Notes under the pieces: generated by a model | Seen by the model: only the letters and a program-made list of their open reading frames with translations | What the model was told of the DNA's origin: nothing | Database searches by the model: none | Source: a virus | Length of the DNA stretch: 21,436 bases | IMG/VR virus record: IMGVR_UViG_3300042938_000260 | Coordinates: 1 to 21,436 of that record | Strand: one strand, 5' to 3' | Shown here: positions 4,178 through 21,300 of the stretch, in pieces | Layout of the letters: each line of letters begins with the position of its first letter | How positions within the stretch are numbered: the first letter of the stretch is position 1 | Program-made: the position numbers and the translations under genes

Positions 4178-7100
4178 TTACGGGTTATTAGACACGTAGT
4201 ACATGTTGTAACTATAATTTTCAACAGGAACTATTAGTCCTGAATTTGCTGGTTTTTGTCCCTCCCAAGATGTTTGTACATTTGGATAAGGAACTATTTG
4301 ATCTATAACTTCTCCTACTATACTAAATTTAGCACAATAATATGGATATTTACTGTATTTTAGAGGCCCAGCGACAAATGTAACATTATTAGGATTATAA
4401 TCTTTAGAAGTTTGGAAATTATAAAATCTATCTGCCACAGGCGGTATCCATTTTTGAGTAAATGCCGAATCTGTGTATAACCTTTTTATCTCTGTTCCTT
4501 CTTCTGTGTTTGCATATAATACACCTATCGACGGAGGATCAGTTTGAACCACTGTTTCAACCTTAATATTACCATCTACTAAATCACCAGGTACGCTTCC
4601 GCTATAAGGGGATAATAATTGTAAAGCAATTTTGCTAGGATTATTATCAACATTTATTCCCGTAACGTATCCAGTAAATGTAGAAACGGTTGAAGATGTA
4701 AAAGTGTAAAACAATCCAGGTACAATTTGTTCATTAGCTGTGGTTAAAATAAGTTTAACCGATTCATCTAAAGGCAATATTATTCCTGAATTAACGCCGT
4801 TTGTAAGCGAAATAAAATTTGTACCACGTATTGCGTCTTGTGTTGTATACGGAACCGCTGAGGTTTCACCCGGAATTAATGGATTAATATTGTATTCAGC
4901 TACACCTGTATAAAAAGAATAAGCGGTTGTTATTGGAGGTCTTGGTGGCGTAAATGGCAATGTTTGATCATAGCTATAATTTGCATCGTTACCATATATT
5001 CTAAGCCATGGGTTTGCCATATCAGCATTTGAGCGCTCCTGTATTAATTTAACCCCTACTGCATATTCATAAATGGCTGGGGAGATAGATTCGTCCACTT
5101 CAACCGTAAAAGAAGTTGTTAACTCTTGCGGTTGGCCAAAGATTGGTCCGCTACCGTCGTCTATAGTGGACACCACTAATGGCCCTATTCTATATATAGG
5201 AGGCGTAATTCCATAGTTATTTTCATTAGCACTTAAAACCCACGGATTTATTCCTCCAAGCGTGTATATTCTTTTATATAAATATATTTCACCTTCCGCT
5301 CTAATTGTAGCAAAACTTAATCCGCTACAAATGCTAGGAGCCCCTACCTGTAATTCTATGCTAAATCTATATTCACCTTTTTCTAATCCTAATGGCACTA
5401 TAGGGCTAACGCCCGAAGCAGCTGCGTTTTTAACCTCTACATTTTCAACAAATTGATTATTTTCAACAACACATCCAGGGACTACAGGCACATAAGAGGA
5501 GTTTGCTCCAGCATTAGGGCCTATATAAGCTACGCCATAAACAGGTGTAGCGTTAGTTGGACCGCTACAAGGTATTGGGTTTGTTACAATATTACTTGCA
5601 TAATTAGGTCTTAACCAAAATGGAACCGGATCGTCTCCAACATTTATTGTAAATGTTTTTTCATTAAATTTTGTACCAAAGTCTGTTCCTTCAACCGGCA
5701 ATATTGCGCCCGTGCCAGTATTAACCGCGTCCTGTACTTTTATAACTAAATTATATATACCTATCGGTACGTTAGGATTTATTAAAGATAATTCTCCTGT
5801 ATATTCACTTAAAAGAAAAGAAGAAGTAGTATCTCCACTAACTATAGTCCATTTTAATCCTGTTTTTACGCCTGTTGGCGGGACAGGAGGTGGTCCTAGC
5901 GGATCAAAATACGCTCCGTTTACAGCATCCAAAGTTACAATACTTGTTGTATCTTGGGTTATATTATAAAGCGTCTCTGTAGTTCTTATCTCGGGAGCGA
6001 TGTTGCCTAATCTACCAGTGATAGTTAATTGAGTTGCTGTGGAAGGATCAGTGTTGTCTTGTACATTAAATACAAAAGTATAATTTTCCGCGGTAGCCGC
6101 ATTGTTATTAAATACAAATCTAGAAAGAATTTTTAATTTAAATTTATTAACCGGTCCAATAATTGTTTCAAGACCAAATTCAGCAGTCCTGTCTAAAGCA
6201 GGCGGCCCAGTATTATCCGTTACTGATAATAAAGTAACTGATGTATTCGCCAAAGGAAATACATTCTGATCTAATACGTAGAATTCACTTGTTATATATT
6301 TTGAATTAGGATCCCCGTAATTATTAGGACCTAAGTCTGTTCCTAAAGGGTTTTGATTTTCAAATTGACGATACACAAGTTCTCCAAAACTTGACGGACC
6401 TTCAAAACCGGTTAACACGTCGGCGTTTAAATCTGATATTAATCCTGTTGTAGCAGTTTCCCAAAATAATTCTAATAAACTCTGTTCTGGCCTTGTTTCA
6501 TATACTCCTAAAAATGGTATCATATCAGCAGCAATTACTCCCATTTTATTAACAGTGGAAACTCTACCTATTAGAGGTTTCGTTTGTAATTGATAAAAAT
6601 TTAAACCTGCTGTTCCGCTTAAATTATCTTCAGAACTGTCTAAAAAATTAAATTCATCCGCAGACGCAATAGATATTACAGTATCTGCTTTCCTAGTAGG
6701 AAAATATTGTCTATTTTCTGCTCTAGTAATTATAAAAGTTCTATAATCACCACTACCCGGCTGAGGGGATGGAATTGGATTTTGTGCTGCTTGCAATACC
6801 CAGTTAGGTGAAGATATTGTTATAGTTCCTATAGTTCCTACAATTACATTAGACACTACCACTGTATCGCCTAGCCATCTATAAAGGTTAGGCATTGTAC
6901 CACCCGTAGTAGTTCCGGAAACTGTATTAGGAGCGGGCGTATTAGCCTCAACACATTGAATACCATCACCAGGTTTTATTAATGAGTAATCTCCCTGACC
7001 TGGCGTTACTAATGGGTCTATACTATATTCTATAGTTCTTACTTTTGCAGAATAAGCCGGCCATGTAGGTGAATTTCCTTTTATTATAATATTTGCTTCT

Positions 7101-9721
7101 GTATTTTCTACCCTTCCGTATAATTGAACACTACTTCTATATTGTTTTTGGTCAGGACCAACCTCTGATAAATCTCTTGGAACTTTATTAATATTGTCAT
7201 TAATCAATACAATATGAGATGTATTACCAGTTTCACTTACTGGAAATTGCGTAGTATTTATACCGTTTTCTAATGTTGAAGTTGCGGTAGGCCCAATACC
7301 TGAATATACGACTTGAGACCCTGAGGTTTGGCTTTTAGGATACCCGTTTAACATACCGGGCAAATATACATTATAGTAATCTTGCTCTTGTTGCTTTACA
7401 ACTATTTTATATGAATACCAACCAATAGGATTGTATTCGTAAACAAATTTAATATCTTTTATGCCTCCTGCTTGAGACACATATTTATATATATCACCAA
7501 CTCTACCGCTTGTAGTTATTGTGTACTCATTAGGGTTTACTGTAGGTATTGGATTTGATAAAACTTTAACGTAATCTGTATAAAAGCCCCTCATTATATT
7601 ACCATTAACTGGAGGTGTATTTAATGTAGCCGTTGTATCTAAAGTATATTTATATGTTGTATCGGTTATTGTTGACGCTGTAATTGCAAAACCAAAATTT
7701 GACGTTGCTATTGCATACAAACCTGGCGTACCACTTGGAATAGATCTTGCTTGATCTATTGGGGCGTTTAAATATAATATTAAGGCATCTCCGAACCAAG
7801 ATCGTACATCTGTAAACAAAAGTGTATCTTCATAGCCTGAATATACTGTAGAACCTTTAGCAAAATTACCACCGCCAATATTTGTACTTGTTAAATCCAC
7901 AGTTGATAATATAACCGGGGATTGTCTTCCAAATTTATCAGCCAATACAAATCCTACCTGATAATTTCTATTCTTTTTTAATGTATGATTTGGGTATTCT
8001 ATAAAATTAGTTCCTACGGAAGATTTAGTTTGAACCGACATATTATAATTTATAGAAGATAAACAAGTATATTTATCAAAATAATTACCATAAATTATTC
8101 TATTCCCAGCGGACTCCTGTGCCTTTGCTCTAACAGGTACTTTATCATATACTCTTACTGTCTGGTCTTCTGGTAATGTTTTATATGGTTTTTGAGATTG
8201 ATATGGTTGTATATAATAATTATTATTAGTATTGTCTAAAGTGTTTATAGCTGATATAGGAATTGTTTCAAAAACTTTAATAGCATTTGAATCGGACTCT
8301 TTATATAAAATATCAACTTCTTGTATTTTATAACTATTATTTAAATTACCTACTTTGTCAGGAAATGGAACAATTAATTCTATGTTGTTTATATTATTTT
8401 CAAACCAATTTAAAATGGTACTTCTATAAGCATCTGTTTCATTACCTGCAATAAAATAACCTTTTTGTTTTGGTATATAAGCTATTTGAGTGAATGGAGC
8501 CATTAAAGAATATTCATTATCATCGTATTTAAAACGATAACTAAATCTAACATATTTATCTTCTAAGAATGCAGGATCCCCGGGCCATGTAGGGACACTA
8601 GATTTATCGGACATGGTAGATATTAAGAATGTTAATATATAATTATTATTTATATCAGTTGTTGGTTGATATAATGTTAATGTTGTATTGCTCATGCTTA
8701 CTACAGTAGCATAATCTGATCCATCTAAAAACTGAACCCCACTTGAGGAATTTGATAATACTGTTGCTCCAGGTTGTATTGCTCCTAAGTAAGGATACTT
8801 TAATGTAATTGACACTGTACCTGCAGTAAATATGACAGTTGAGGATACTTGTATACTTGTAGGACTAACTATAGAAGTAATAATAATTTGCCCTAAACCA
8901 AAAGAGCCGGTTCCATTAGTACCACCAACGACATCTCCAATTGAAAAATTAGCAAATCCATTTGTAACTGCTGTAGTTATTTTTGCTGTATAAGGTGCAG
9001 GTGGCCCGCCGGACACCGTATCTATAGTACATGCAAGACTGCTCATATTTGATAAACCCCAAGTATCACCTGCTCCAGAAACTACGGTTGCGGTTTCTTT
9101 TTTATACATTGTTATAGGATCTATAGGAGCATACTTTGCGACTGAGATCTGTTCTTCTGTAGTATAATATGTTGGTATTGTTAAATTATTAGGATTTGCT
9201 AAATTAACATTTATTTTTCTAGGTTGATTTCTATTATCAGTCCAAAATAATAATCCTTCAACTAAATTTACTCCGGTTATTCTAAACTGAGTATTCTTAG
9301 CAAAATTTAAAAATAGTCCTTCTACTAATATTACATAAGAAACCGGATCACTTAGGTTATATACTACTATTCGTATTGTCTTACCCTCTGGAGGATATGT
9401 AATTTCATTAGGAATTTCATCCTCGTAATCGGTTAAGAATTGAAATATGCGATTATTTTGGTTGTCCATAAAAAACCCAATGCATTCTAAACCTGGTATA
9501 TAATTTGGATTGATTGTAGTAGTTCCGGGAATAAATTCTGTATTGGTTGTTAATGGCATTCTTTCATTACCATATACGTTTTGTAATACCCCAATATTAT
9601 TTGCTTCAGATTTACCTACTTCAATATTTAACGCGTCTCTATATTGATCATTAGGAATAAGCCGATCATCTAGATCTTTATTCATCTTAGACGATATAAA
9701 ACTATTTTTTATTTCTGCCAT
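4178..9721 (-). CDS. Giant tail nozzle/muzzle-like structural protein with cadherin-like domain, 1847 aa
   Basis: The N-terminus (about residues 8-52: SSKMNKDLDDRLIPNDQYRD, then a GVLQNVYGN motif) is the characteristic opening of nozzle/stabilisation proteins in short-tailed phages of the T7 gp12 and crAss-like muzzle type. It is followed by very long beta-strand-rich sequence with Thr/Asn/Gly-rich turns. At about residues 1238-1365 there is a cadherin-like unit: GNIAPEI at its start, a WTIVSG strand, a TGELSL strand, IYNLVIKVQD and a closing FTINVGDD. This unit contains a proline-rich insert (DPLGPPPVPPTG). The last 480 residues are more beta-rich repeats. T7 gp12 is about 800 aa, so this is more than twice that length. 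The protein probably closes the tail tip, and the extra C-terminal domains may contact the host surface or anchor fibres. It lies between the 429-aa connector-like gene and the 511-aa nozzle-like gene. Confidence 0.7.
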   Translation of the reverse strand: MAEIKNSFISSKMNKDLDDRLIPNDQYRDALNIEVGKSEANNIGVLQNVYGNERMPLTTNTEFIPGTTTINPNYIPGLECIGFFMDNQNNRIFQFLTDYEDEIPNEITYPPEGKTIRIVVYNLSDPVSYVILVEGLFLNFAKNTQFRITGVNLVEGLLFWTDNRNQPRKINVNLANPNNLTIPTYYTTEEQISVAKYAPIDPITMYKKETATVVSGAGDTWGLSNMSSLACTIDTVSGGPPAPYTAKITTAVTNGFANFSIGDVVGGTNGTGSFGLGQIIITSIVSPTSIQVSSTVIFTAGTVSITLKYPYLGAIQPGATVLSNSSSGVQFLDGSDYATVVSMSNTTLTLYQPTTDINNNYILTFLISTMSDKSSVPTWPGDPAFLEDKYVRFSYRFKYDDNEYSLMAPFTQIAYIPKQKGYFIAGNETDAYRSTILNWFENNINNIELIVPFPDKVGNLNNSYKIQEVDILYKESDSNAIKVFETIPISAINTLDNTNNNYYIQPYQSQKPYKTLPEDQTVRVYDKVPVRAKAQESAGNRIIYGNYFDKYTCLSSINYNMSVQTKSSVGTNFIEYPNHTLKKNRNYQVGFVLADKFGRQSPVILSTVDLTSTNIGGGNFAKGSTVYSGYEDTLLFTDVRSWFGDALILYLNAPIDQARSIPSGTPGLYAIATSNFGFAITASTITDTTYKYTLDTTATLNTPPVNGNIMRGFYTDYVKVLSNPIPTVNPNEYTITTSGRVGDIYKYVSQAGGIKDIKFVYEYNPIGWYSYKIVVKQQEQDYYNVYLPGMLNGYPKSQTSGSQVVYSGIGPTATSTLENGINTTQFPVSETGNTSHIVLINDNINKVPRDLSEVGPDQKQYRSSVQLYGRVENTEANIIIKGNSPTWPAYSAKVRTIEYSIDPLVTPGQGDYSLIKPGDGIQCVEANTPAPNTVSGTTTGGTMPNLYRWLGDTVVVSNVIVGTIGTITISSPNWVLQAAQNPIPSPQPGSGDYRTFIITRAENRQYFPTRKADTVISIASADEFNFLDSSEDNLSGTAGLNFYQLQTKPLIGRVSTVNKMGVIAADMIPFLGVYETRPEQSLLELFWETATTGLISDLNADVLTGFEGPSSFGELVYRQFENQNPLGTDLGPNNYGDPNSKYITSEFYVLDQNVFPLANTSVTLLSVTDNTGPPALDRTAEFGLETIIGPVNKFKLKILSRFVFNNNAATAENYTFVFNVQDNTDPSTATQLTITGRLGNIAPEIRTTETLYNITQDTTSIVTLDAVNGAYFDPLGPPPVPPTGVKTGLKWTIVSGDTTSSFLLSEYTGELSLINPNVPIGIYNLVIKVQDAVNTGTGAILPVEGTDFGTKFNEKTFTINVGDDPVPFWLRPNYASNIVTNPIPCSGPTNATPVYGVAYIGPNAGANSSYVPVVPGCVVENNQFVENVEVKNAAASGVSPIVPLGLEKGEYRFSIELQVGAPSICSGLSFATIRAEGEIYLYKRIYTLGGINPWVLSANENNYGITPPIYRIGPLVVSTIDDGSGPIFGQPQELTTSFTVEVDESISPAIYEYAVGVKLIQERSNADMANPWLRIYGNDANYSYDQTLPFTPPRPPITTAYSFYTGVAEYNINPLIPGETSAVPYTTQDAIRGTNFISLTNGVNSGIILPLDESVKLILTTANEQIVPGLFYTFTSSTVSTFTGYVTGINVDNNPSKIALQLLSPYSGSVPGDLVDGNIKVETVVQTDPPSIGVLYANTEEGTEIKRLYTDSAFTQKWIPPVADRFYNFQTSKDYNPNNVTFVAGPLKYSKYPYYCAKFSIVGEVIDQIVPYPNVQTSWEGQKPANSGLIVPVENYSYNMYYVSNNP

Positions 9722-9727
9722 TTAATT

Positions 9728-11017
9728 TTAGTGTTTAATCCATTTAGATTTTCCTCTCATAACCTGGGTAATTTCTTCTAACTTGATGTTAGATAATCTT
9801 ATTTTTGTATTACGTAACATTGCAGAACGTTCGCGTTTAAATCTTTGAACTATGTATTCTTGTACATTACTTCTAGTAGAAAGTATACTATATAAAATAT
9901 GCAAGTACATAGCCTCTTCAGCCATTTTAGGTATCCTAGTATCTAAATCATAAGCTAAACCGTCTGATATATATTCTAAGATTATTAAGGAACCCACAAG
10001 ATCACTACTAAATGAAAATTTATTTTCTCTTTCATTAATTGTAAATGTTCCATTAATATTTGAATACTGCGGATCAAGACCGTATCTTTCTCCATAATAT
10101 CCGCCATACCCGTAGTTATTATATCCATACTCAAGACCTCCTTGAAATGAATTTAAAGCATTTGCAATGTTACCCACATTGTTAGAATTCCAACGTTTAT
10201 CAATTATAGGGGTGCCTTCAATATTATCTCCAAAGTTATCCTGGATAGGTACACCTAAAAAGTCTTGTATTGGAGTTTGAGTTGGATTGCTAGTTAACGT
10301 AGTTGGGTATATTATATGCTTGACGCCAGCGTTGTCAACCCAGGACATCTTAACATAGTTAACATAATCTTGAGGTATTGCCAAACTTAGACTTGGAGGT
10401 ATTGTTAATTCTTGTGATTTAATGCTTTTTAAAGTATCATAACTAAATTCTTGTAATCCTCGTTTCGCATGAAATATAACATCGGTTCTTTTTACATCCG
10501 CAATTAATTTTCCGGCTCCTACATAAGCAACTAAGAAATTATTTATAACATCGTTTAAAGTTATATAAGCATATCCTCCATAATTATTTTCTACAGTATT
10601 TCCATAAGCATAACTTCCTGGTACTAAAGGGTCGCCATAATTACCGCCGTCTAGTGTTTTTAATTGAACAACAACATAAGTTCCTATAGTCCAATATATT
10701 GGATTTATATTGTATATTGTATTGCCTACAACATTGTATTCCGTACTAGGAATAAGGTTATTACCAAGTACCTCTTGAAAATCTCCTGGAAGCCCAGTAG
10801 AGTTAATATATAATTTAAAGTTATTTAAAGCGTAATTAGGATCGTTTGGGTCGTCGCTTCCAAATATTAAGTCTGTATTAAATGTAGTTGTAAAGCTAGT
10901 AGTTGGTTGCGGGGGTCCTATTCCAGTAGTATTTTGATCTACTACTTGAAAACCTTGTGCTCCTTCGTAATATTGTCTATTTGTTTCGGTAATTAAACCA
11001 TTATTAGGTATCGGCAT
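9728..11017 (-). CDS. Connector/tail tubular-like structural protein, 429 aa
   Basis: The core (residues about 152-240) starts ITLNDVINNFLVAYVGAGKL and continues with an amphipathic helix (VIFHAKRGLQEFSYDTLKSI) and strand-rich IPQDYVNYVKMSWVDNAGV. The C-terminus (about 362-429) is helical and very basic, with RFKRERSAMLRNTKIRLSNI. I recognise this helix-plus-strand core as the type found in head-tail connector or tail tubular A-like proteins of marine short-tailed phages. The N-terminal 150 residues are Asn/Gly/Thr-rich and beta-like. A very unusual tyrosine/glycine-rich segment is at 297-313 (7 Tyr and 6 Gly in 17 residues). It lies between the adaptor-like gene and the giant nozzle gene, with 6-base gaps on both sides, which fits a ring or tube protein between portal and nozzle. 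The exact ring in the connector stack cannot be told from sequence alone. Confidence 0.7.
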   Translation of the reverse strand: MPIPNNGLITETNRQYYEGAQGFQVVDQNTTGIGPPQPTTSFTTTFNTDLIFGSDDPNDPNYALNNFKLYINSTGLPGDFQEVLGNNLIPSTEYNVVGNTIYNINPIYWTIGTYVVVQLKTLDGGNYGDPLVPGSYAYGNTVENNYGGYAYITLNDVINNFLVAYVGAGKLIADVKRTDVIFHAKRGLQEFSYDTLKSIKSQELTIPPSLSLAIPQDYVNYVKMSWVDNAGVKHIIYPTTLTSNPTQTPIQDFLGVPIQDNFGDNIEGTPIIDKRWNSNNVGNIANALNSFQGGLEYGYNNYGYGGYYGERYGLDPQYSNINGTFTINERENKFSFSSDLVGSLIILEYISDGLAYDLDTRIPKMAEEAMYLHILYSILSTRSNVQEYIVQRFKRERSAMLRNTKIRLSNIKLEEITQVMRGKSKWIKH

Positions 11018-11023
11018 TTTTTA

Positions 11024-11752
11024 TTAGCTTTTTGAATTAATATTATTTGCTTGTGCTTGCTGAGCCGCTATTTGTACAATTTGTGGGTCCTCAATAACTA
11101 TACCTGAATAAAGTAATATTCTAGTTATTAAATTAGTTTGTTCTGTTGGGTGTAATTCAAAATCAACACTAGGATTTGTAGTACTAGTAGGAGGGCTATA
11201 AATATATTGTTGGTTTGCGCCTAGCGTAAAATTCCATATTGGATCTGCTGGCTTTCTAATATAGGTACAAGTAATCCCAGTAGTTATCGTTGTTGGATAT
11301 ACCTTTATTATAAAGTCTTTAAAAGTATATACTGGCCAATACGGTGAAGGTTTAGTAATTGGCGATAGGTTTAATTCTAATAGTTCATTTGGTTGAACAT
11401 ATTGAATTTCTTTGTCATCATTATATATTACAGTACCTAATTTATAAAAATCAGTTACTGCTGGAATATTAAGTATTCCTGGAACACTAAATCCACCTGC
11501 TGTAGGTAAACAAGTTCCGTCTGTTTGAAAGATTGCAATCTTTTGCTGTAGATTTTTAACACGATCACTATATTCCGTATCATTATCCGGTACGCGAATT
11601 TGTTGATTTAGACTTTCAAAATATTCGTTAAATATTTCTAATTGAACTTGTGTTGCTGTTTTATTAAATTCATCAGGAGTTATATAACCTCTTTGCTCCT
11701 TATTCAAGATTAATAAAACAGTTCTATAAACCGTATTTACACTTACTGCCAT
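11024..11752 (-). CDS. Head-tail adaptor/ring-like protein, 242 aa
   Basis: The N-terminal 50 residues are helical and conserved in style: VNTVYRTVLLILNKEQRGYI then TPDEFNKTATQVQLEIFNEY, followed by a charged helix (YSDRVKNLQQKIAIFQTDG). The middle is strand-rich (about 95-170, including a DFIIKVYPTTI strand and a TYIRKPADPIW motif). The C-terminal 45 residues form a helix (EQTNLITRILLYSGIVIEDP, then a Gln/Ala-rich end). This helix-strand-helix plan, with the helices packing on the portal, is that of phage adaptor proteins (T7 gp11, P22 gp4 and crAss-like ring proteins). It comes straight before the 429-aa connector-like gene in transcription order. The family call rests on pattern recognition plus gene order. 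Confidence 0.65.
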   Translation of the reverse strand: MAVSVNTVYRTVLLILNKEQRGYITPDEFNKTATQVQLEIFNEYFESLNQQIRVPDNDTEYSDRVKNLQQKIAIFQTDGTCLPTAGGFSVPGILNIPAVTDFYKLGTVIYNDDKEIQYVQPNELLELNLSPITKPSPYWPVYTFKDFIIKVYPTTITTGITCTYIRKPADPIWNFTLGANQQYIYSPPTSTTNPSVDFELHPTEQTNLITRILLYSGIVIEDPQIVQIAAQQAQANNINSKS

Positions 11753-11775
11753 CTGTTATTTTTATTATAATATTA

Positions 11776-11799
11776 AGGCGGTAACCTCAGCCACCGCCT
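11776..11799 (-). terminator. Perfect 7-bp hairpin after the 254-aa gene; RNA processing site or weak terminator
   Basis: Between the 254-aa and 242-aa genes, AGGCGGT (11776-11782) is the exact reverse complement of ACCGCCT (11793-11799), with a 10-base loop. The stem is far more GC-rich than its surroundings, so it is unlikely to be chance. On the transcribed minus strand the stem is followed by TAATATTATAATAAAA, without a U-run, so it is not a canonical intrinsic terminator. It may slow decay of the upstream message, act as an RNase site or cause pausing. Confidence 0.5.
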
Positions 11800-11817
11800 A
11801 TATATTAGTATTACGTA

Positions 11818-12582
11818 TTATTCAAATTTTTTCGCTATTGATTGGTAGATCTCAACGCCCTCATCGGTCTTGAAGAATGCTGCCATAGCGGAATAAGGAT
11901 TTTCATCAAATGGAACGGTCATCAATTTCTTACCGTTACTCGCCCATTTAAAATCTCTTTGATCTTGTGATAGTTTGATAATATTTGCTTCACATGCTTT
12001 AATCGCAAAATTACGAAGTTGCACATTTTCATCATTAGCCAGTTCTATGAACAAACTAGGATTGCTTCTAGCAAATAGTAACAAATCTCTTTTTATCTCC
12101 TTAGAAGTCATCTTAGATGCCTTAGATCCTACCTCAACACGTATAATCGCTTCAGCTTGATCTATATCCATACCCATTGCAGCTGTCATTGCTTCAACTT
12201 GTAATTCTAAAATATCCAATTCATTTGTCGCTTTTTGAACAGCGCTAAACTCACGGTATTTTTTGTTTAACATTGGGTGATATAAAGATAATAATTTTTG
12301 TAAGTTTTGTTTTTCTTTTGGCACAGTTAATGTACCATTTTTAAGCATAATATGCCCTAAGGTAGCTTCTCCTTTTTGTTCATCCATAAATGGAGAATTT
12401 TGGTTAGTTGCATATCTTAATTCTTTTTGCTCTTGAGTTACCGGATCAAACCATAATAACGGGAACCTTCTTGAGTGTCTTGAAGATAATGTATAAGTTA
12501 GTGGGTTATGAGCACCCATTAATAGATAAGTTCTATCTTTTATTTCCCAGCTATCTGAGGCAATTGTTTTTTCTTTTGACAT
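11818..12582 (-). CDS. Conserved phage protein of unknown function, 254 aa, between capsid and connector genes
   Basis: The N-terminal half (about residues 15-110) is compact and rich in conserved-looking positions: LMGAHNPLTYTLSSRHSRRF, LLWFDPVTQEQKELRYA, NSPFMDEQKGEATLGHI and VPKEKQNLQKLLSLYHP. A helical linker follows (113-165), with IDQAEAIIRVEVGSKA. The C-terminal third (about 160-254) has an alpha-helical domain, ending with FKWASNGKKLMTVPFDENPY and AAFFKTDEGVEIYQSIA. I recognise this kind of protein from other marine phage genomes but know no function for it. It has no signal peptide or membrane segment. It is the only gene in the block bounded by a hairpin on each side, one after the capsid gene and one after its own stop, which suggests that its dose is separately controlled. 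A virion accessory, a nucleic-acid-binding late protein or an assembly factor are all possible. Confidence 0.85.
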   Translation of the reverse strand: MSKEKTIASDSWEIKDRTYLLMGAHNPLTYTLSSRHSRRFPLLWFDPVTQEQKELRYATNQNSPFMDEQKGEATLGHIMLKNGTLTVPKEKQNLQKLLSLYHPMLNKKYREFSAVQKATNELDILELQVEAMTAAMGMDIDQAEAIIRVEVGSKASKMTSKEIKRDLLLFARSNPSLFIELANDENVQLRNFAIKACEANIIKLSQDQRDFKWASNGKKLMTVPFDENPYSAMAAFFKTDEGVEIYQSIAKKFE

Positions 12583-12672
12583 GATATAATATAATTAATT
12601 AATTGTTTTTATTAAAAGTAAAAGTTACCCCCGTAATTACAACAGGGGTAAAATTTACAATGTGTATTCTAA
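12583..12672 (-). other. Longest gap in the window: leader of the 254-aa gene and tail of the capsid gene
   Basis: This 90-base gap lies between the major capsid gene and the 254-aa gene. It holds the hairpin described separately, and closer to the 254-aa start an A/T-only stretch (AATTAATTAATTATATTATAT on the minus strand), which acts as the AT-rich leader usual in this genome. No Bacteroidota-type promoter (TTTG plus TAnnTTTG) is visible on the minus strand. Confidence 0.45.
12625..12651 (-). terminator. Hairpin with U-rich tail after the major capsid gene; likely (partial) terminator
   Basis: TTACCCC (12625-12631) pairs with GGGGTAA (12645-12651), giving a 7-bp stem with a 13-base loop. 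On the minus-strand transcript it begins about 21 bases after the stop codon of the capsid gene and is followed by CTTTTACTTTT, an interrupted U-run. This is a plausible intrinsic terminator. Since the downstream connector genes must also be expressed and no clear promoter follows, it may terminate only part of the transcripts and so keep the capsid message in excess. Confidence 0.5.
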
Positions 12673-14127
12673 CTAGATTACTGAAGTAAACAACACAAAG
12701 TTGTTAGCTCCTTGTACGCATAAACATCTTTCAGACAAGAAGTTTACCTCCATTGCATCAAGATCAGATGTGTAAGCTCCTCCAACAGATCCAGTTACCC
12801 ATGATTTCATTCTTCTATCATCAGCTTGTGCAGCTCTATAACGAACGTGTAAGAATGGTCTACGGATATTAGTTCCTAAGATTTGATCGTAAACTGTAGA
12901 AGTTCCAGCGGGAACCAAGATACCATCAATACCAGAATTTGCAACAGCTCCACGAGTAGATGCATCATTTAAGTATTTCCAGTCAGTTTTGTAGAAATCG
13001 TAAGAACCTCTTCTGAATCCAGAGAATCCTAAGTTCAAAGCCATTTCTTCAGAGTTTTCAAACAAACCGTAAGCAACACCACCAGCAGCTCCAGAAGATA
13101 ATGCAGCAAGCATATCATCAAAGTCAAGAGATGTTTCACGGTTTAAGAACAACATGTTTTCTTCGATAGCTCCTTGAGTATCTAAGTTTTTCAAGATTGA
13201 ATCAAACTCAGTTAAACCCGCAGCAGCAGAGAAGTTATTCAATACATTACCTCTATCTTGAACAGCAGCAAATAAACCTTGAGTACCTTTAGCCCCAGCA
13301 ACTGTTTTAGCCGCAGACGTTGCTGTAGCTAATTCACCCTCAACAACAGACATTTCAAGATAATCTTCAAAACGTAATCTTGTTTCAGATTCAGCTTTCA
13401 AATACCAGTAGAATCCACCAGCACCATCTTCAGTAGCAATTTCTACCCATCCTACTTGCGCAGTATCAGAACCATTAACAACATATTTGTTACGGATAAT
13501 AATTGGAGAGTTAGAATATTGAGTGAAAGAAGGAGTAATGCTAGTATAGTTATCATTAGCTAAAGTAGAACCTTTTGCATATTCAGAACCATAAACAAAG
13601 ATTTTTAAGCTATCCATATCATCAGTAAATGTTGCAGCAGCCAAAGTAGCAGCGGTATAAGGGGCAACGGTTAAATCACCTGTAGTAATATTACTAGCAG
13701 TAACAATAGCTTTTACCTCTAATCCTGTAGCAGGATTCATAATAACGATAGTTTGGTTGATTGAAATAACGTTTTGTACAAAATCAGCAGGATCCGCAGG
13801 AGTTAAATCTACTGGGATTCGCAAAGTATTTGCAGCAGCACTAACAACATCAACGCCAGTGTAAGCAACGTGTAATCTATTTTGTTCTGACCAAATAACT
13901 TGATCTGAAGACATTGGCATTTCTGCTCCTACCATACGCAAGAATCCAGAAAGAGTTCTGTTTCCGTAACGTTCTACTTCAGCTTCGTAGATTTCAGGTA
14001 AGTATTGCTGTGCGAAAGATGAAAAATCAGGATTAGTTGGATCCGTGAAATTCAAATAGTTTGTGTTTAGAGCTTGTTGCTTCTGAGAAGGAACTATACT
14101 TCCAAACGTAGGCGTAACATTTGCCAT
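12673..14127 (-). CDS. Major capsid protein, 484 aa
   Basis: The protein has a flexible N-terminal arm (about 1-35) and then a conserved helix/loop region (residues 43-87), LPEIYEAEVERYGNRTLSGF followed by a GAEMPMSSDQVIWSEQNRLH motif that I recognise from major capsid proteins of marine short-tailed phages. A beta-rich, Thr/Ala-rich insert follows (about 125-200), then a helix-rich region (about 285-350), and a C-terminal end with SERCLCVQGANNFVLF. The length, the position after portal and scaffold genes, and this motif agree with an HK97-fold capsid protein that forms the icosahedral shell. It is visibly more GC-rich than its neighbours and uses more C-ending and repeated preferred codons, as expected for the most abundant virion protein. 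There is no N-terminal protease-type delta domain, so a separate scaffold is expected, and one is present. Confidence 0.9.
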   Translation of the reverse strand: MANVTPTFGSIVPSQKQQALNTNYLNFTDPTNPDFSSFAQQYLPEIYEAEVERYGNRTLSGFLRMVGAEMPMSSDQVIWSEQNRLHVAYTGVDVVSAAANTLRIPVDLTPADPADFVQNVISINQTIVIMNPATGLEVKAIVTASNITTGDLTVAPYTAATLAAATFTDDMDSLKIFVYGSEYAKGSTLANDNYTSITPSFTQYSNSPIIIRNKYVVNGSDTAQVGWVEIATEDGAGGFYWYLKAESETRLRFEDYLEMSVVEGELATATSAAKTVAGAKGTQGLFAAVQDRGNVLNNFSAAAGLTEFDSILKNLDTQGAIEENMLFLNRETSLDFDDMLAALSSGAAGGVAYGLFENSEEMALNLGFSGFRRGSYDFYKTDWKYLNDASTRGAVANSGIDGILVPAGTSTVYDQILGTNIRRPFLHVRYRAAQADDRRMKSWVTGSVGGAYTSDLDAMEVNFLSERCLCVQGANNFVLFTSVI

Positions 14128-14140
14128 AATTGTTTAAGTT

Positions 14141-15316
14141 TTAATGGTTAAATTTTTTGATTTTTAATTTTGTAGAATCTACGCCGTTAATTGCTTTTAC
14201 TTTTAATCCGTTAATAAAAATCTCACCAGAAGACGTTTGTCTTGGGGCAGTCGTAGTATTATTAGATTTTGCAACAACTTCTTTAATCGCATCGGCTTTA
14301 CCTTGTTCATAAAAATGACTTGCAATAGTATCTATATTCTCAGCGCCATACATAGCTTTGTGATACCCTTTCAAATCTGTAACTTCACCTTTATCGTTTA
14401 AGAACTTCTTAACTAGGTTTGTAATGTTTGATTGTTTATCGGCCACAACGTCCGCATTCTGTACGCCATATCTAAAATTCTTTTCTCCTATCTTGAAATC
14501 AAAACCTTTGAAGTCTTGAGAGAAAAAACCCTTAGTATCGTCTTTAAACTTAGAGTGTTGTGTTTCCACGTATGTTTGTTCTTCATTGTATCGGTTAAAA
14601 AAGTCTGTAGCTTTTTGTTGTTCTTTGGTAACTCCGGGTCTTAACTTAATTTCCTCGTAGTATTTACCTTTAAGATCTTCTAAAAAGTTTTTAGCTTTTG
14701 CAACTTCTTCTTTGAATGCGAGTTTCTTTTTTCTGATGTCTCGCTCATCATCTTCGTCTTCGTCATAACTAAATTCATCCTCCATTAAGAAATCAATTTC
14801 TTCAGCGTCTAAATGTGGTCTTGACTTTTTATAATATTCTTTTAATAATTTTTCATTGCTAATAGAAGAGTAGTCAGCGTTTAATCTAATATAATCTTCA
14901 ACTGTTCCACCGGTCTCTTCCATAAAAGAAACTAATTTCTCAATGTTTTCTGGCAATGGTTTCCCGTTTACCTCGGCTTTTTCAATAGCTCTATTTGTTT
15001 CTTCAATTAATGTCTCAGCAACAGTATTAACTTCTTCCTGGGTTATCTCTTGAATTACAGTAACTACTTCTTCTTGATTAACTTCATTAGCAACTTGGTG
15101 GTTGACGGTGTTTCCTTCGCCCACTTCTTGCAATCCCACTTTGGGCTCTTGATTGACCAACACGCTTTCATTTGTGCTTTGCTCTTGAACGGCATCTGGA
15201 ACTATTTTAGTTGTTAAATCTACTTTTGAAACTACATTAGGTTTCTCTAACTTTTTCATAGGAGCTTTTCTTTTCTGAAGCTTAAACTCCCCTTCTTGTC
15301 TTACTTGTTCTGACAT
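14141..15316 (-). CDS. Scaffold-like capsid assembly protein, 391 aa
   Basis: This is a highly charged, mostly helical and partly disordered protein between the portal and capsid genes, the position of the scaffold in most short-tailed phages. The N-terminal 30 residues are basic (KLQKRKAPMKKLEKP). Residues about 42-115 are Glu/Gln/Val-rich and low in complexity (NQEEVVTVIQEITQEEVNTV). Residues 133-220 form a helical core with the acidic cluster FSYDEDEDDERDIRKKK at about 182-198. The C-terminal 30 residues are basic and end KLKIKKFNH. A basic C-terminus that contacts the coat protein is known from the P22 scaffold, so a similar role is likely here. No serine-protease motif is visible, so a maturation protease is not supported. 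The function is inferred from composition and synteny. Confidence 0.7.
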   Translation of the reverse strand: MSEQVRQEGEFKLQKRKAPMKKLEKPNVVSKVDLTTKIVPDAVQEQSTNESVLVNQEPKVGLQEVGEGNTVNHQVANEVNQEEVVTVIQEITQEEVNTVAETLIEETNRAIEKAEVNGKPLPENIEKLVSFMEETGGTVEDYIRLNADYSSISNEKLLKEYYKKSRPHLDAEEIDFLMEDEFSYDEDEDDERDIRKKKLAFKEEVAKAKNFLEDLKGKYYEEIKLRPGVTKEQQKATDFFNRYNEEQTYVETQHSKFKDDTKGFFSQDFKGFDFKIGEKNFRYGVQNADVVADKQSNITNLVKKFLNDKGEVTDLKGYHKAMYGAENIDTIASHFYEQGKADAIKEVVAKSNNTTTAPRQTSSGEIFINGLKVKAINGVDSTKLKIKKFNH

Positions 15317-15350
15317 AATATAATAATATAAAATTGGTTAATAAAATTCT

Positions 15351-17750
15351 TTACATTCCGAATCCTGATAAATCATCATAAGAAGATTCAAAATCCTTAG
15401 GCATAGAATTATTTTTTCTTTGGTCTATTAATTCCGACTGTTGCGTGGCTTGTATTTTTGTTCTTTGATCTTTACGATCTTCTGCTTGTGTTTGTTTTTG
15501 TTGAGCGATACCTAATTGCACTTGGGCAAGTTGCATATCATACTCAAACTTCTGAGCCATCTTTTGTTTCTCAATCAATAACTCCTGTTGCATTCTTTGT
15601 ATTTCAAATTGAGATTTGGATTGTAATATTTGAATCTCAGTTTGAGCTAACGCTTGTTGCTTTTGTACTTCTGCTAATGCAGCAGCTTCAGATGCTTGAG
15701 CATTTGCTTGTGCTTGCGCTTGTATATTTGCTTGTTGATCTGCTTGTGCTTTTTCTTGTTTCTTCTTTCTTTTATATTTTAAAGATTGATTAGCAAGTTT
15801 AAGATTTTTAATTTCTCTTAAATCAATAGCGTCTTCTAGGTCTATACTACCTGTCTGTAAAGACATTTGTATGTTTTGTTCTAATTGCGCTTTTTCTTCA
15901 TCCTCTGGCTCTAACTCTAAGAAGATACCGAAGTCATGTAAGTTTAAGTTTACAATTTCTTTTAGTGTTTCTACATTAGATATAGATATACTCTCAATTA
16001 AGGATTGCCTTGTTAAAGGAAAGTTTAAAGAATCGCTAATCCTCAAGGATACATTCTCACATACTCTTAATGTTAAGAATAAACTAGCATCTTTAATATG
16101 ACGAGTTGATGTATTTGAATTTGCAGCAGCCATCTTTTGTAATCCTACTAATGCGTCTCTATCCGGTGAACTACCATCTCTTGCTTCGTTTAATCCGGTT
16201 ACATCGCGAATCATCTGTAAGTAATACTGGTAAGTAGATATTAAAGAACTTATCTTAGCATTACCTGACGATGTTTGTAATTCTTGAATTGGTACTTTGC
16301 CTGGGTTTTGTCCACCATCTTGTGATTGAGATCTACCAACAATACTACCGGTTTGGAAATACATATTCAAAGCTTCAGCAGCATTGTAATTTGTACCATT
16401 CCCTAAATCAACTTCTGCTAAACCATCTACATCTACAAAAACTCCATCTGGCACCATTCTAGATAGTACTTGTTGTAGTTTTAAATGCGTTAACTGAATC
16501 ATATCAGCAAACGTAGTAATTCTACTTACTAAAGATTCAATTCTACCTTTATACATTCTAGGTGCACAAATCGCATAATTCATTTCTACTTTAGTAGTAT
16601 CTGCATAAGGTCTAGTCATATTCTCTGCTAACTTCCATTCTAGCATTTTTTCAAATCCTAAAATCTTTGCTCCTGAATATAATACCTCAATTGTTCTAGA
16701 TACTCTTTCAAAGTTATCACTTGTTGGCGGATTAAAAGTATCAGGTTTCTCTAACGCTTTCTCTAATCCTTGTTCTGTTTGTTTAATCTTAAATACTTGG
16801 TTTGAATAAGTTTTATATTCAAAGTAAAGTACTTGTACTGTATTATCGTTTTGATCTTGTCCATAATAATTACGAGTGTAATTAACATCTCCAGGATACT
16901 TTTCTATTTCTTTTAAATCCGCATCAGATAAATGTGGAAATTGTTTTTTCAATTCTTCTAAACTAATAGACTTAACTTCACCAACATAATAAATATCTTC
17001 AAAGTTTGGATCTTCAGTATAAGAATAAACCAATGATGCAGGATCTACCCAATCAATTGTAATACCATTCGCTGGGTTCCAATTTGTTTTTGCAGCTGCA
17101 ATACCTAATACTGTTAAATCATAGTTTAGTCTTTTACTAACTAAATCGTATTTATTAGTATCTAATATCTGATTGATTACTTCTTCTTCTGCAATCTCAA
17201 TAGATTGTTTATAATCTAATTGCAAGTGTACCTCAAGTTCTTCAGTTGTTTCCGGTAATTTACTTGGATCAAGACTATTATATAAATTAGCGCCTAACTT
17301 TGATTGAATCTCATCTAACAAATCTTTTGCCATCATATCTCTCAATATACCGGCGGCATAATCTGTTTTCTGTTTAGTTGCTTCTGGATCTTGGGCATAA
17401 GCTTTAATCTCATAACTCTTATTGCTTAAACCATTAACAACAATATCTACAAACTTAGGTATAACAGGAATTGGTTTCCAATCTAAATTAAGATAAGACA
17501 AGTCTCCATTTATAGATAATTCATCTTTATATTTTTGCACAGGTTGTTCTCCTCTTGCATAAAGTCTAAGTCTATGAAAGTTTTGCCAGTTAGATCCCCA
17601 ACGGTTTCCAACTCCACCGCCAACGCGATCTCCTCTAAACCATTCGTTTTCAATAGCTCGGCCAACTAAAGCGCCATATTCATAACTTTGTTTTTCTTCA
17701 TCAGGCACCACCTGGCTAGGGAAAGAACTATTATTATTTGTATAAATCAT
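15351..17750 (-). CDS. Portal protein, 799 aa
   Basis: This protein forms the dodecameric ring through which DNA enters and leaves the head. It follows the large terminase after 3 bases and precedes the scaffold gene. Near the N-terminus is an aromatic, basic segment (NFHRLRLYARGEQPVQKYKD, about 57-76) followed by WKPIPVIPKFVDIVVNGL, the opening typical of large portals in this phage type. The middle has the clip/wing-type mixture of helices and strands with acidic loops (about 150-420), and a helical crown/stem part (about 420-640). Residues 655-780 form a continuous Gln/Ala/Lys-rich coiled coil (for example IQAQAQANAQASEAAALAEV), comparable with the long C-terminal barrel helix of the P22 portal. 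The C-terminus ends in an acidic, Ser/Tyr/Gly-rich tip (SSYDDLSGFGM). The length agrees with the large portal class (700-800 aa). Confidence 0.85.
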   Translation of the reverse strand: MIYTNNNSSFPSQVVPDEEKQSYEYGALVGRAIENEWFRGDRVGGGVGNRWGSNWQNFHRLRLYARGEQPVQKYKDELSINGDLSYLNLDWKPIPVIPKFVDIVVNGLSNKSYEIKAYAQDPEATKQKTDYAAGILRDMMAKDLLDEIQSKLGANLYNSLDPSKLPETTEELEVHLQLDYKQSIEIAEEEVINQILDTNKYDLVSKRLNYDLTVLGIAAAKTNWNPANGITIDWVDPASLVYSYTEDPNFEDIYYVGEVKSISLEELKKQFPHLSDADLKEIEKYPGDVNYTRNYYGQDQNDNTVQVLYFEYKTYSNQVFKIKQTEQGLEKALEKPDTFNPPTSDNFERVSRTIEVLYSGAKILGFEKMLEWKLAENMTRPYADTTKVEMNYAICAPRMYKGRIESLVSRITTFADMIQLTHLKLQQVLSRMVPDGVFVDVDGLAEVDLGNGTNYNAAEALNMYFQTGSIVGRSQSQDGGQNPGKVPIQELQTSSGNAKISSLISTYQYYLQMIRDVTGLNEARDGSSPDRDALVGLQKMAAANSNTSTRHIKDASLFLTLRVCENVSLRISDSLNFPLTRQSLIESISISNVETLKEIVNLNLHDFGIFLELEPEDEEKAQLEQNIQMSLQTGSIDLEDAIDLREIKNLKLANQSLKYKRKKKQEKAQADQQANIQAQAQANAQASEAAALAEVQKQQALAQTEIQILQSKSQFEIQRMQQELLIEKQKMAQKFEYDMQLAQVQLGIAQQKQTQAEDRKDQRTKIQATQQSELIDQRKNNSMPKDFESSYDDLSGFGM

Positions 17751-17753
17751 CTA

Positions 17754-19973
17754 TTATATTATTTTTGAACTATGACCATCATTATTATATCTTTTAAATC
17801 CTAAAGAAACTGCATCTTTTTGAAAGCTACTTGTTGGTGTATACATGTGTTTATTACACGCCATTATAGCTAAGCCTGAACTAATGGAGGCATCGTGCTT
17901 TGTTCTATCGTTTATATTAAATCTAGCCCAATCTTCTAATGTTTTTTGAAAATACATATCTCCATGAGAATCAGTATTATAACCAACAAAATTTTCTATA
18001 TAGGTTTCTATTGCCGCCGCATGAGCTTGAATAATATCTTGTCCAGAGTTTGGTATTCCGCCAATTTCTTTTTCAGCTGGAGATAATTTGTTCCAAATTT
18101 TATCAGGTCTATTCATTGAGAATCCTCTGTACCCTCTTCTTTTAAAATGGTATAATAGTCTTGCTTTGTTATTTTCAGCCAAAATAGGCATACCGTAAAA
18201 CACACAAGCCATTAGTATTTCTTCAAAGAAAATTTCTGCGGTTTGTGGTCTTGCAATATATTCAAGGAAGAAATGGTTAGGAGGCACATCTTCCATAGAG
18301 AATTTAGTTAATCCATGTAAAGCTCCATTCGAACCTCTATTATCTACTGTTCCCGATATATCGTAACTATCACAACCAAATGCCCCACAATGTTCATTGC
18401 CTGGATATTTGTAACCATCTTTTATTATTACGCGGTTTTGCAGATGTTTAGCGGGAACCCACGAAATTAAAAATCTACCATCTTTGTTTGGATAAAAATC
18501 TACTTTAGAATCTAATATACCATTTGACCATTGGAAACTACCGCGAGTTAAAACCCCAGTATTTCTTAAGTCATCATTGTAATCAATCTGTTCGTATATC
18601 TTAGTAAGATTGAATAATGATTGTTTTGTTTCGTCTCTAAATGCGTGTTGCTCTGTTCTTGGAAATTGTCTGTAATATTCATTTAATCCATCTGAATCAG
18701 ACTTTAAACCGTCCACTTCATTTTGCCAATGCTCAATAACTCCACAGTCTATTTCATTTCCGTCAACTCCTTTGATTGGTTTTTCTGGAGTATCGAACAC
18801 AGGTAAGCCATAAGTATCAATGAATCCCTCGAACGACCATTCCATAGGTATGAACAAACTATATAATCCTGAGCTAGTCTGTCCGTTGCGGTTCCTTTTT
18901 TCAACGTCTGAGTCATAATAAAGTTTTTTATAATTAGATCCACCTTTGTCTAAAGCATTTGATGTAGAACCCATCATGCATTTACCTACAATCTTACTAC
19001 CTAATCTTAAACAAGTTTTAGTAACACGCCAGTTGTTAAGGATATTATCAGGTTTCAACCATTTAGCGGCCTCATCCTGAACTAATATTTTTAATTTTTC
19101 ACCATCATAACTATTGTCTCCGGTATTTTTCCAGTCAATAGTTGTATCTAAGCCTGCTAATTCATCCGCAGACTCGCTGTTATCTAACTTCCTTCTTGTA
19201 AACTTTGAAGCAGGTACTCGATATGCAAGCTCTGTTTTAGGTCTATCCATACCATCTTGGATAGGTTTAAAAAAGAAAGGATAGTTAAGCGATATAGGCA
19301 CAACCTTATCGGTAAACATTGTCTTAGCATCAGACCCAGTCTTTGATAATATACCAAACCTAGAATCGCTAGACATCGTAGCTATGTTAACCAACTCTGC
19401 AGATGACATAAATGAAAATCCGGAACGTCTATTCTTTAAATAACACATCCCATAACATCTACTATCCGCTTTACAAGCCTCCCAGAATATAAAGAATAAT
19501 CTATTAGACTCTCTAAAATCTGGTGCGCCTACGTCAATCTTACTCCATTGCAAGTACATATAATGTGTACCGGTTATATATGTTGGAACGCCATTACTAT
19601 AAAATGAAAAGCCATCGTCTCTATATTTGAACTCGTTGTCTATATAGTCGTAATGCTTCTCTTTAAATGTATCGGGATATTTATTCCAATCAAATACATT
19701 CTTTATTTTTTCTAACTCCTTAGGAACGTCTAATTGCTTCCAGTATTGTTGTTCTTTTTTATCAGATCTTTTATATGAATTTTCTAGTAATGGTAATGCT
19801 ATTTTTAGATTTTGGATTTCAATAATTTCACCAATCTTTCCAGTCTTACTAATAACAACCACATCATGGTCTTTATTATATCCATATTTCCAATTGTTAT
19901 AACGATTTGTTTTCTTTATGATACCAGGTTTTATGTGATCTGGCAGTACTCTGTAAAGTGTTTGCTCGTACAT
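17754..19973 (-). CDS. terL: Terminase large subunit (packaging ATPase and nuclease), 739 aa
   Basis: The protein packs the genome into the procapsid through the portal and cuts the concatemer. A deviant Walker A, KNRRSGFS, is at residues 180-187. Walker B ILVQDE is at 296-301, with D300 and catalytic E301, and a coupling motif GSTSN is at 335-339. The C-terminal nuclease has the RNase H-fold acidic triad: D535 in GCDSYD, E600 in ILAENNKARL, and D694 in KHDASISSG. The nuclease also has an insertion with HFKRRGYRGF after E600. An N-terminal extension of about 100 residues is rich in Tyr/Lys. The start overlaps the stop of the preceding small gene as TAATG, so the two are probably translationally coupled. 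The length is larger than T7 gp19 (586 aa) but usual for large-genome phages of Bacteroidota. Confidence 0.93.
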   Translation of the reverse strand: MYEQTLYRVLPDHIKPGIIKKTNRYNNWKYGYNKDHDVVVISKTGKIGEIIEIQNLKIALPLLENSYKRSDKKEQQYWKQLDVPKELEKIKNVFDWNKYPDTFKEKHYDYIDNEFKYRDDGFSFYSNGVPTYITGTHYMYLQWSKIDVGAPDFRESNRLFFIFWEACKADSRCYGMCYLKNRRSGFSFMSSAELVNIATMSSDSRFGILSKTGSDAKTMFTDKVVPISLNYPFFFKPIQDGMDRPKTELAYRVPASKFTRRKLDNSESADELAGLDTTIDWKNTGDNSYDGEKLKILVQDEAAKWLKPDNILNNWRVTKTCLRLGSKIVGKCMMGSTSNALDKGGSNYKKLYYDSDVEKRNRNGQTSSGLYSLFIPMEWSFEGFIDTYGLPVFDTPEKPIKGVDGNEIDCGVIEHWQNEVDGLKSDSDGLNEYYRQFPRTEQHAFRDETKQSLFNLTKIYEQIDYNDDLRNTGVLTRGSFQWSNGILDSKVDFYPNKDGRFLISWVPAKHLQNRVIIKDGYKYPGNEHCGAFGCDSYDISGTVDNRGSNGALHGLTKFSMEDVPPNHFFLEYIARPQTAEIFFEEILMACVFYGMPILAENNKARLLYHFKRRGYRGFSMNRPDKIWNKLSPAEKEIGGIPNSGQDIIQAHAAAIETYIENFVGYNTDSHGDMYFQKTLEDWARFNINDRTKHDASISSGLAIMACNKHMYTPTSSFQKDAVSLGFKRYNNDGHSSKII

Positions 19974-20248
19974 TATCTAGATCTCCCTTCTGCAAATCCT
20001 TTAAATACTTTGGTATTAGGATCCTTTTCGCTTTCTTCTAACATTCTTTCTTCTTCTTCTATTCTATTAAGAATTTCAAAAGCATCAAAGATCGCTAGCT
20101 TTTTTGTAGCAGCGGCATTCTTTAATTTGTCTGCGCTTAAATCATCTTCCCCGTTATTTAATATCGCTTCTTCAGCAACTTTAATTAATTCAAGAACTGC
20201 TTTATGCCCCGCGGCCACAATATTCCTCTTCGTCTCCTTTATATCCAT
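19973..20248 (-). CDS. Small helical protein, candidate terminase small subunit, 91 aa
   Basis: The gene can start at an ATG at 20266 or, more likely, at an ATG at 20248, because the protein then begins MDIKETKRNIVAAGHKAVLE as an ordinary amphipathic helix. The earlier start would add the hydrophobic MILLLS. The protein is helical, with charged second-half sequence (NAAATKKLAIFDAFEILNRI then a Glu-rich segment). I recognise this sort of short protein beside large terminases in phages of marine Bacteroidota. Its place directly before TerL, with a TAATG overlap, is that of the small terminase subunit, which binds DNA and starts packaging. The family is highly variable in sequence, so this call is by position, size and helix content. 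It overlaps the 198-aa gene by 47 bases. Confidence 0.65.
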   Translation of the reverse strand: MDIKETKRNIVAAGHKAVLELIKVAEEAILNNGEDDLSADKLKNAAATKKLAIFDAFEILNRIEEEERMLEESEKDPNTKVFKGFAEGRSR

Positions 20249-20798: not shown

Positions 20799-20799
20799 T

Positions 20800-21027
20800 T
20801 TAATATTCTAAATCGTATTCGACCGCAATGCTCATGTTTGAATTAAACTTCTTCCACGGCATTACTTCGTCATCTTTTTTAATAAATATATTATATGAAC
20901 TGTCTTCTTCTTCTAATAATATATGTGAGATTTCATGCCCTCCATAAACATTTTGTCCTACAGAATAATGCATAGCGTTATCCTTATAGTCCGAACCAAT
21001 GCTTATCTTACGAATAACAGAACTCAT
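20800..21027 (-). CDS. Small unknown phage protein, 75 aa
   Basis: This short protein starts MSSVIRKISIGSDYKDNAM and has a run of alternating hydrophobic and charged residues (YSVGQNVYGGHEISHILLEE) followed by an acidic, then a Lys/Trp-containing stretch (IKKDDEVMPWKKFN). It seems a compact alpha/beta protein without signal peptide or membrane segment. I recognise no family with a known function, although I think similar sequences occur beside the packaging genes of other Bacteroidota phages. It is joined to the gene before it by a TAATG overlap and to the GroES-like gene after it by a one-base gap, so the three are likely translated as one unit. A role in assembly or host takeover is possible but cannot be shown. 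Confidence 0.7.
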   Translation of the reverse strand: MSSVIRKISIGSDYKDNAMHYSVGQNVYGGHEISHILLEEEDSSYNIFIKKDDEVMPWKKFNSNMSIAVEYDLEY

Positions 21028-21275: not shown

Positions 21276-21300
21276 TTTTATTTAATTTGATTGTTAATTA

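Follow-up and report, generated by a model that had tools for sequence, protein, structure and literature searches.

The locus and its question

In a virus record of 21,436 bases, referred to here as the window (the whole stretch of DNA that was analysed), a reading frame of 254 amino acids lies between the major capsid protein gene and a connector-type gene, with a hairpin on either side of it. The locus raises the question of what kind of protein is encoded there, and whether it is expressed apart from its neighbours. The explanation favoured here, to which a probability of about one half is given, is that the gene encodes a morphogenesis protein that stays out of the virion and acts together with the product of gene 77, with a hairpin and a start element of its own separating its output from capsid production.

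Gene order and conservation

The head block of the window runs on the minus strand and contains the following genes:

20202-20798, minus strand: GroES-like gene (phrog_13932)
17754-19973, minus strand: large terminase gene
15351-17750, minus strand: portal gene
14141-15316, minus strand: gene 77 (391 aa), an open reading frame in the portal/capsid interval, at the scaffold position (weak match to phrog_22928, E 0.0015)
12673-14127, minus strand: major capsid protein gene (phrog_13704, E 6.7e-96)
11818-12582, minus strand: gene 75 (254 aa, ATG start), the open reading frame studied here (phrog_34748, E 3.7e-23, and phrog_16922)
11024-11752, minus strand: connector-type gene adjoining gene 75 (phrog_14543, E 4.2e-33)

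The names gene 75 and gene 77 follow the gene order in PMC7886860, and in the window the label gene 77 was given by gene order alone. A match of the connector-type gene to the Pfam family SU10_adaptor was weak (E 0.017) and below the cut-off. An earlier sequence-only reading had placed a 254-aa gene between the capsid and connector genes, a placement borne out by the reading frame at 11818-12582 on the minus strand and by its phrog_13704 and phrog_14543 neighbours.

Relatives were gathered by protein, yielding 80 loci with the window protein and, for distant homologues, another 80, 5 and 79; 15 more loci were taken from genome contigs, and the reading frame was complete in 244 of 265 loci. They were divided into clade A (the group of the window), clade B (MW202828-like), clade C (phi38:1-like) and clade D (elemo-like and other loci). 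Among loci with more than 600 nt of flank, a capsid match was located upstream of gene 75 in 92/92 loci of clade A, 69/70 of clade B, 7/7 of clade C and 65/65 of clade D. Within clade A, the capsid match lies at most 250 nt upstream in 91 of 92 loci and the connector match at most 250 nt downstream in 86 of 87. The protein had been described as strongly conserved, in agreement with the purifying selection measured against nine relatives (dN/dS about 0.06-0.19). Many clade-A relatives (L016-L080 and others) carry an extra, variable and charged N-terminal tail of some 20-45 residues, which the window protein does not have.

Family and fold of the gene 75 protein

The window protein is a divergent member of the crAss-like gene 75 family and not an orphan, an identity backed by its gene neighbours, its predicted fold and a comparison of profiles. 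The family is widespread and uncharacterised, and its genes directly follow the capsid gene in crAss-like and marine phages. Named members of this family are PhicrAss001 gp33, phi14:2 g090, phi38:1 and phi40:1 gp094, and phi18:3 gp105. The earlier statement that the protein has no known role therefore holds in part: its two PHROGs, phrog_34748 and phrog_16922, are both of unknown function, but the family as such is a known one, crAss-like gene 75.

A profile of 28 gp33-type proteins was matched by hhalign with E 9e-10 and a probability of 96.5 over 154 columns of the C-terminal half, while the reversed control gave E 0.12 and the best of 60 permuted profiles scored 27.6 against 72. The N-terminal half is outside this match, and it is covered in the alignment with the Pachyviridae orthologue (E 3.2e-19, 215 columns). 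An AlphaFold2 model built from 71 sequences was confident (pLDDT 91.4, pTM 0.69), and its fold matches in BFVD were uncharacterised proteins, namely from Tenacibaculum phage Gundel_1, Cellulophaga phage phi14:2 (S0A085, 294 aa), two CrAss-like viruses and Azobacteroides phage ProJPt-Bp1; the alignments to the CrAss-like proteins spanned 192 columns with a TM of about 0.5. Since g090 of phi14:2 also has 294 aa and is located directly 3' of the capsid gene, S0A085 was taken to be g090. In PhicrAss001, the matching position belongs to gp33.

Nothing credible was found in Pfam for the window protein and 31 relatives, or in the PDB by sequence and by profile. The structure prediction and Foldseek search proposed in the sequence-only reading thus led to phage proteins in BFVD and not to a solved structure: neither the whole model nor the C-terminal domain had a Foldseek match in the PDB at E 0.001, and the best VIA-align Z values (5.4 and 3.9) were inside the range of common arrangements. 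As no solved fold matches, the function of gene 75 has to be read from its context. The C-terminal half, common to gp33, mixes helices with a small sheet; a winged-helix reading of this part came from the order of its elements only, had no support from the searches and was dropped. The literature was similarly silent, with nothing on the function of gene 75 or gp33 in the available text of PMC10136315, PMC12386605 and PMC11054128, and no paper on PhicrAss001 gp33 among the matches listed. In the Crassvirales, gene 75 carries one in-frame stop codon in each of two loci (L285 and L291), perhaps by stop-codon reassignment, which is known for crAss-like phages.

In PhicrAss001 and phi14:2, as in the window, the capsid gene is followed by gene 75 and then by a ring or connector gene, and the likeness extends to the homologous C-terminal half and to the hairpin 3' of the capsid gene. 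The window gene is nevertheless shorter than gp33 and g090, and its N-terminal half was not aligned with gp33 by profile. Counterparts in the Pervagoviridae and Pachyviridae, phi38:1 and phi40:1 gp094 and phi18:3 gp105 (phrog_34748, phrog_16922), occupy the same place, can be aligned over most of their length and are uncharacterised; the window protein is 24% identical to the phi38:1 orthologue. These two families, in which relatives of the window are classed, are outside the order Crassvirales in the classification. The available text of PMC9855967 had already linked both families to the Crassvirales by way of models of capsid and terminase; that these phages are kin is therefore not new.

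Two conserved hairpins flank gene 75

The two hairpins are located in the gaps on either side of the gene:

12625-12651, minus strand: hairpin 3' of the capsid gene, with a T-rich tail, terminator-like (10 pairs including one G-U)
11776-11799, minus strand: hairpin between gene 75 and the connector gene (perfect 7-bp stem, 10 pairs in the fold)

Both had been noticed before with stems of 7 bp; they are real, and the stems are longer than described, with 10 pairs each in the fold. The gap at 12583-12672 (90 nt) folds with an MFE of -19.9 (z -3.6 against shuffled sequence) and the gap at 11753-11817 (65 nt) with an MFE of -19.6 (z -4.2). They are the longest gaps in the listed gene chain; the others, correctly called short and unstructured in the earlier reading, reach at most 47 nt and have an MFE of -1.6 or weaker where folded. 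A perfect stem of at least 7 pairs with at least 5 GC pairs occurs once in the window, at 11776-11799, against 0.1 per shuffle. The first hairpin has the make-up of an intrinsic terminator, a GC-rich stem and then a T-rich tract, whereas the second, a stem without a T-rich tract after it, does not. A simple terminator scan of positions 6000-21436 picks the hairpin at 12625-12651 and omits that at 11776-11799, and gave 6 terminator-like sites against 6.3 expected, with no enrichment as a class. Because the scan is at chance level and picks the first hairpin alone, the evidence from the single sequence is moderate, and it is conservation, the decisive test, that carries the case for the hairpins.

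For this test, gaps of 30-300 nt, with boundaries set by a mechanical chain of open reading frames, were scored as structured at z < -2 against 60 shuffles each. Across these loci, which are related and partly redundant, the gap upstream of gene 75 was structured in 94/94 cases in clade A (the window included), 69/70 in B, 7/7 in C and 59/60 in D, and the downstream gap in 89/89 (the window included), 65/69, 5/7 and 25/37, respectively; other gaps of the same loci passed in 2/91, 13/54, 4/10 and 36/83. For the first hairpin, all 139 scored cells pair in 14 clade-A sequences including the window, and changes on both sides were present in 5 of 10 pairs, a level reached by none of 500 shuffles and lost when the partner strand was slid.

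The two hairpins differ in what follows them. The number of T residues in the 10 nt after the capsid hairpin has a median of 6-7 in all four clades, and after the second hairpin the median is 2 in clade A against 7.5, 6 and 8 in clades B, C and D. In clade A, the clade of the window, the second hairpin therefore may not be a terminator. Crassvirales loci also have a structured gap 3' of the capsid gene, in 46 of 49 scored cases. Downstream of gene 75, most of them leave hardly any space before the next gene (median 5 nt), unlike the hairpin-bearing gap of the window; a second gap is thus not essential to gene 75. A hairpin directly 3' of a capsid gene has a precedent in T-phi of phage T7, which follows gene 10 and separates an abundant message from genes in lower demand. 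The window differs from T7 by having a second hairpin after the next gene and, as in clade A generally, a start element common to that gene and the gene before the capsid gene.

Promoter boxes and transcription boundaries

The promoters of Bacteroidota have a -7 box, TANNTTTG, refined to TAHHTTTG according to the available text of PMC6847099. In the gap after gene 75, the TANNTTTG box is present in 65/69 loci of clade B (shuffle mean 9.3), 5/7 of clade C and 37/37 of clade D (mean 3.6). On the upstream side of gene 75, the gap contains it in 39/60 loci of clade D, 1/70 of clade B and 0/7 of clade C. The TAHHTTTG form was found within 60 nt before the start of gene 77 in 36/39, 4/4 and 37/37 loci of clades B, C and D, and before gene 75 in 46/67 loci of clade D; capsid starts had it in 1 of 113 cases (B 0/53, C 1/5, D 0/55). 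In clade A, the same search gave 0/86 for gene 77, 0/93 for gene 75 and 1/89 for the connector gene, and a host-type promoter sought in the two gaps of the window itself was not found. Over 12 long clade-A records, TAHHTTTG showed little excess (705 occurrences against 629 for the reversed pattern). Matches to sigma-70 promoters in the window were discarded, since they were at chance level (69 against 72.7 expected) and, in the available text of PMC6847099, promoters of Bacteroidota differ from that type. A search of the 12 long clade-A records for a T7-type RNA polymerase gave no match, and neither did the controls.

Unlike the window, four genomes of the Pachyviridae have opposite-strand genes separating gene 75 from the connector gene, so in these phages transcription has a boundary where gene 75 ends. 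In the sister clades, hairpins with T-tracts are followed by host-type TAHHTTTG boxes, and the gene probably forms its own message segment, as the sequence-only reading had proposed.

The Pachyviridae interval comprises 6-11 short opposite-strand genes in phi46:3 (L332), phi18:3 (L335), phi19:3 (L336) and phi13:2 (L337); these genes have no assigned role and their content varies by phage, which marks an insertion hot spot in the head block. Maribacter phage Panino (L082, 12772-14062) also has five short genes in this interval; a T-tailed hairpin is located 3' of its gene 75 and a TATCTTTG box ahead of its connector gene.

A start-codon element common to gene 75 and gene 77

The bases ahead of the gene 75 start are strongly conserved in clade A, and they belong to an element that is also found at the start of gene 77:

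12580-12591, minus strand: start-codon element TATTATATCATG at the gene 75 start (81/93 clade-A gene 75 starts)
15314-15325, minus strand: start-codon element TATTATATTATG at the gene 77 start (67/86 clade-A gene 77 starts)
11761-11772, minus strand: TATTATAATAAA, just 5' of the connector start (at most 30 nt from 47/89 clade-A connector starts)

The 12-mer TATTATATNATG, whose ATG is the start codon, accounts for these 81 and 67 starts, and it was found at none of the capsid (0/84), connector (0/89) or next-gene (0/79) starts of the clade. The 93 clade-A loci (751 kb) contain 151 copies, all of them on the coding strand, and the loci of clades B, C and D contain none; the element is likewise missing from the Pervagoviridae and Pachyviridae orthologues. 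Of 23 sites in twelve long records (38-65 kb), 12 fall by their coordinates at gene 77, 10 at gene 75 and 1 elsewhere, against 0 sites for the reversed pattern.

A protein-independent scan of IMG/VR with a 21-base form of the element yielded at least 120 stretches, of which 80 loci with 103 sites were analysed. Of these 103 sites, among the matches listed, 54 start gene 75 and 42 start gene 77; the other seven comprise five at contig ends (four with gene-77-like N-termini and one a single codon), one short reading frame with a gene-75-like N-terminus, and one other. The two exact matches in the window are the gene 75 and gene 77 starts, and a search allowing one mismatch in the window alone was at chance level (4 against 2.6 expected).

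The start element common to gene 75 and gene 77 is the strongest regulatory feature of the locus, and one that the sequence-only reading had missed. It has A at -3 and T at -6, while several neighbouring starts are A-rich instead; in F. johnsoniae, initiation benefits from A at both -3 and -6, according to the available text of PMC6847099. With a sigma-type -10 box so near the ATG, transcripts would begin within the coding sequence; any promoter here would thus have to be of a kind that starts within or just after the element. A translational operator would be just as compatible with the constant distance to the ATG. On a more far-reaching idea, TATTATATN joined to ATG would serve this marine clade as a control site dedicated to two genes, as a near-leaderless promoter or a translational operator; it would have replaced host-type promoters at genes 77 and 75 and would couple the output of the scaffold to that of its partner around the capsid gene. 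This idea is held as tentative and rather unlikely. The TATTATAATAAA sequence, with 56 coding-strand matches in clade A against 3 on the opposite strand and a fixed distance to the connector start, may be another start signal.

Presence in virions

The evidence on virions consists of MS/MS notes made by others in the deposited records of phi14:2, phi40:1 and phi18:3; labels in the phi38:1, Calle and elemo records were not counted as independent. In all three records, portal and capsid carry such notes and the gene 75 orthologue carries none. In phi14:2, notes are found on the portal, the capsid, the pair of genes that follow g090 and numerous further genes, and are missing from g090, the gene at the gene 77 position, the terminase, g084 and IHF. 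In phi40:1, they are found on gp91, gp92, gp93, gp95 and gp97 and not on gp94 (gene 75) or gp96, and in phi18:3 on gp99, gp104 and gp112-114 and not on gp105 (gene 75) or gp103. Moreover, the two papers on the PhicrAss001 virion (PMC10172136 and PMC6235969) do not name gp33 in their available main text, nor does that of PMC13288928, on proteomics of the phi38:1 virocell and virion, name gp94.

These missing notes count against the earlier suggestion of a virion accessory and slightly favour the other one, an assembly factor. A missing note is weak evidence, however, because phi40:1 gp96, labelled structural in relatives, is also without one, and gp92, at the scaffold position, has one. The third suggestion, an abundant late protein, found no support in this analysis.

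Gene 75 as a candidate assembly partner of gene 77

In clade D, host-type promoters precede the starts of both gene 77 and gene 75 in most loci, and clade A has the common element instead, which argues for joint control of the two genes apart from the capsid gene. The position of gene 77 is where many phages have their scaffold, and genes 75 and 77 are probably co-regulated capsid-assembly genes. Under the favoured explanation, the gene 75 product would work with that of gene 77 during capsid assembly and the fitting of the connector. The abundant capsid message would be terminated or attenuated at the first hairpin, gene 75 would restart from its own start-site element, identical to that of gene 77, and the second hairpin would close or protect the gene 75 segment ahead of the connector gene. 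Homology, gene order, the conserved hairpins and the common element are firm results, while termination, co-regulation and a part in assembly are inferred.

The strongest competitor concerns the hairpins, which might stabilise or process one long head-block message without ending it, with TATTATATN and the ATG serving as a translation signal only. The 0/93 count of TAHHTTTG before gene 75 in clade A, the second hairpin without a T-tract in that clade and the fixed distance of the element to the ATG, as expected of a signal at the RNA level, make this a real possibility, short of even odds given that clades B, C and D have T-tracts after either hairpin, that promoter boxes occupy both gaps in clade D and that the opposite-strand genes of the Pachyviridae mark a boundary after gene 75.

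As for the protein, it could be a low-copy virion component, at the portal vertex or in the head interior, for example, that proteomics missed. Its gene is located inside a block of virion genes, and mass spectrometry does miss low-copy or small structural proteins: phi40:1 gp96 and phi14:2 g084 are also without notes, and gp21, gp24 and gp43 were missed in the 2018 PhicrAss001 study, by the available text of PMC6235969. This reading is unlikely, however, with the gene 75 note missing in three phages of three families, no mention of gp33 in the available main text on the structure of PhicrAss001 (PMC10172136), and a start element that links gene 75 to gene 77 and not to the capsid or connector genes. 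A DNA-binding protein for packaging or late gene control, which the record label of PhicrAss001 gp33 ('double-stranded DNA binding domain') and the helices and small sheet of the shared C-terminal half would suit, is more doubtful still: no DNA-binding family emerged from the Pfam, PDB sequence or fold searches, and the window protein carries almost no net charge (+1).

A morphogenesis protein acting with gene 77 is therefore preferred. According to the available text of a 2023 review (PMC10136315), how the capsids of these phages assemble has still to be worked out; were the two-gene control site real, gene 75 would be the missing assembly partner of crAss-like phages and their marine kin. 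Gene 75 is now tied to cultivable marine phages (phi38:1 and elemo) and, through the start element, to the scaffold-position gene. The element itself, common to genes 75 and 77 in clade A, is new and offers a testable idea on both.

A muzzle-type protein in the window

Outside the head genes, the Crassvirus muzzle protein domain PF25729 was found over its cut-off at 2595-4130, a trait that the phage shares with the order Crassvirales. The crAss muzzle-type protein is seemingly split over two minus-strand reading frames, at 2595-4130 and 4178-9721: positions 1-183 of phrog_14478 match the reading frame of 1847 aa, and positions 924-1256 match that of 511 aa, which also carries PF25729, the C-terminal domain of the crAss muzzle.
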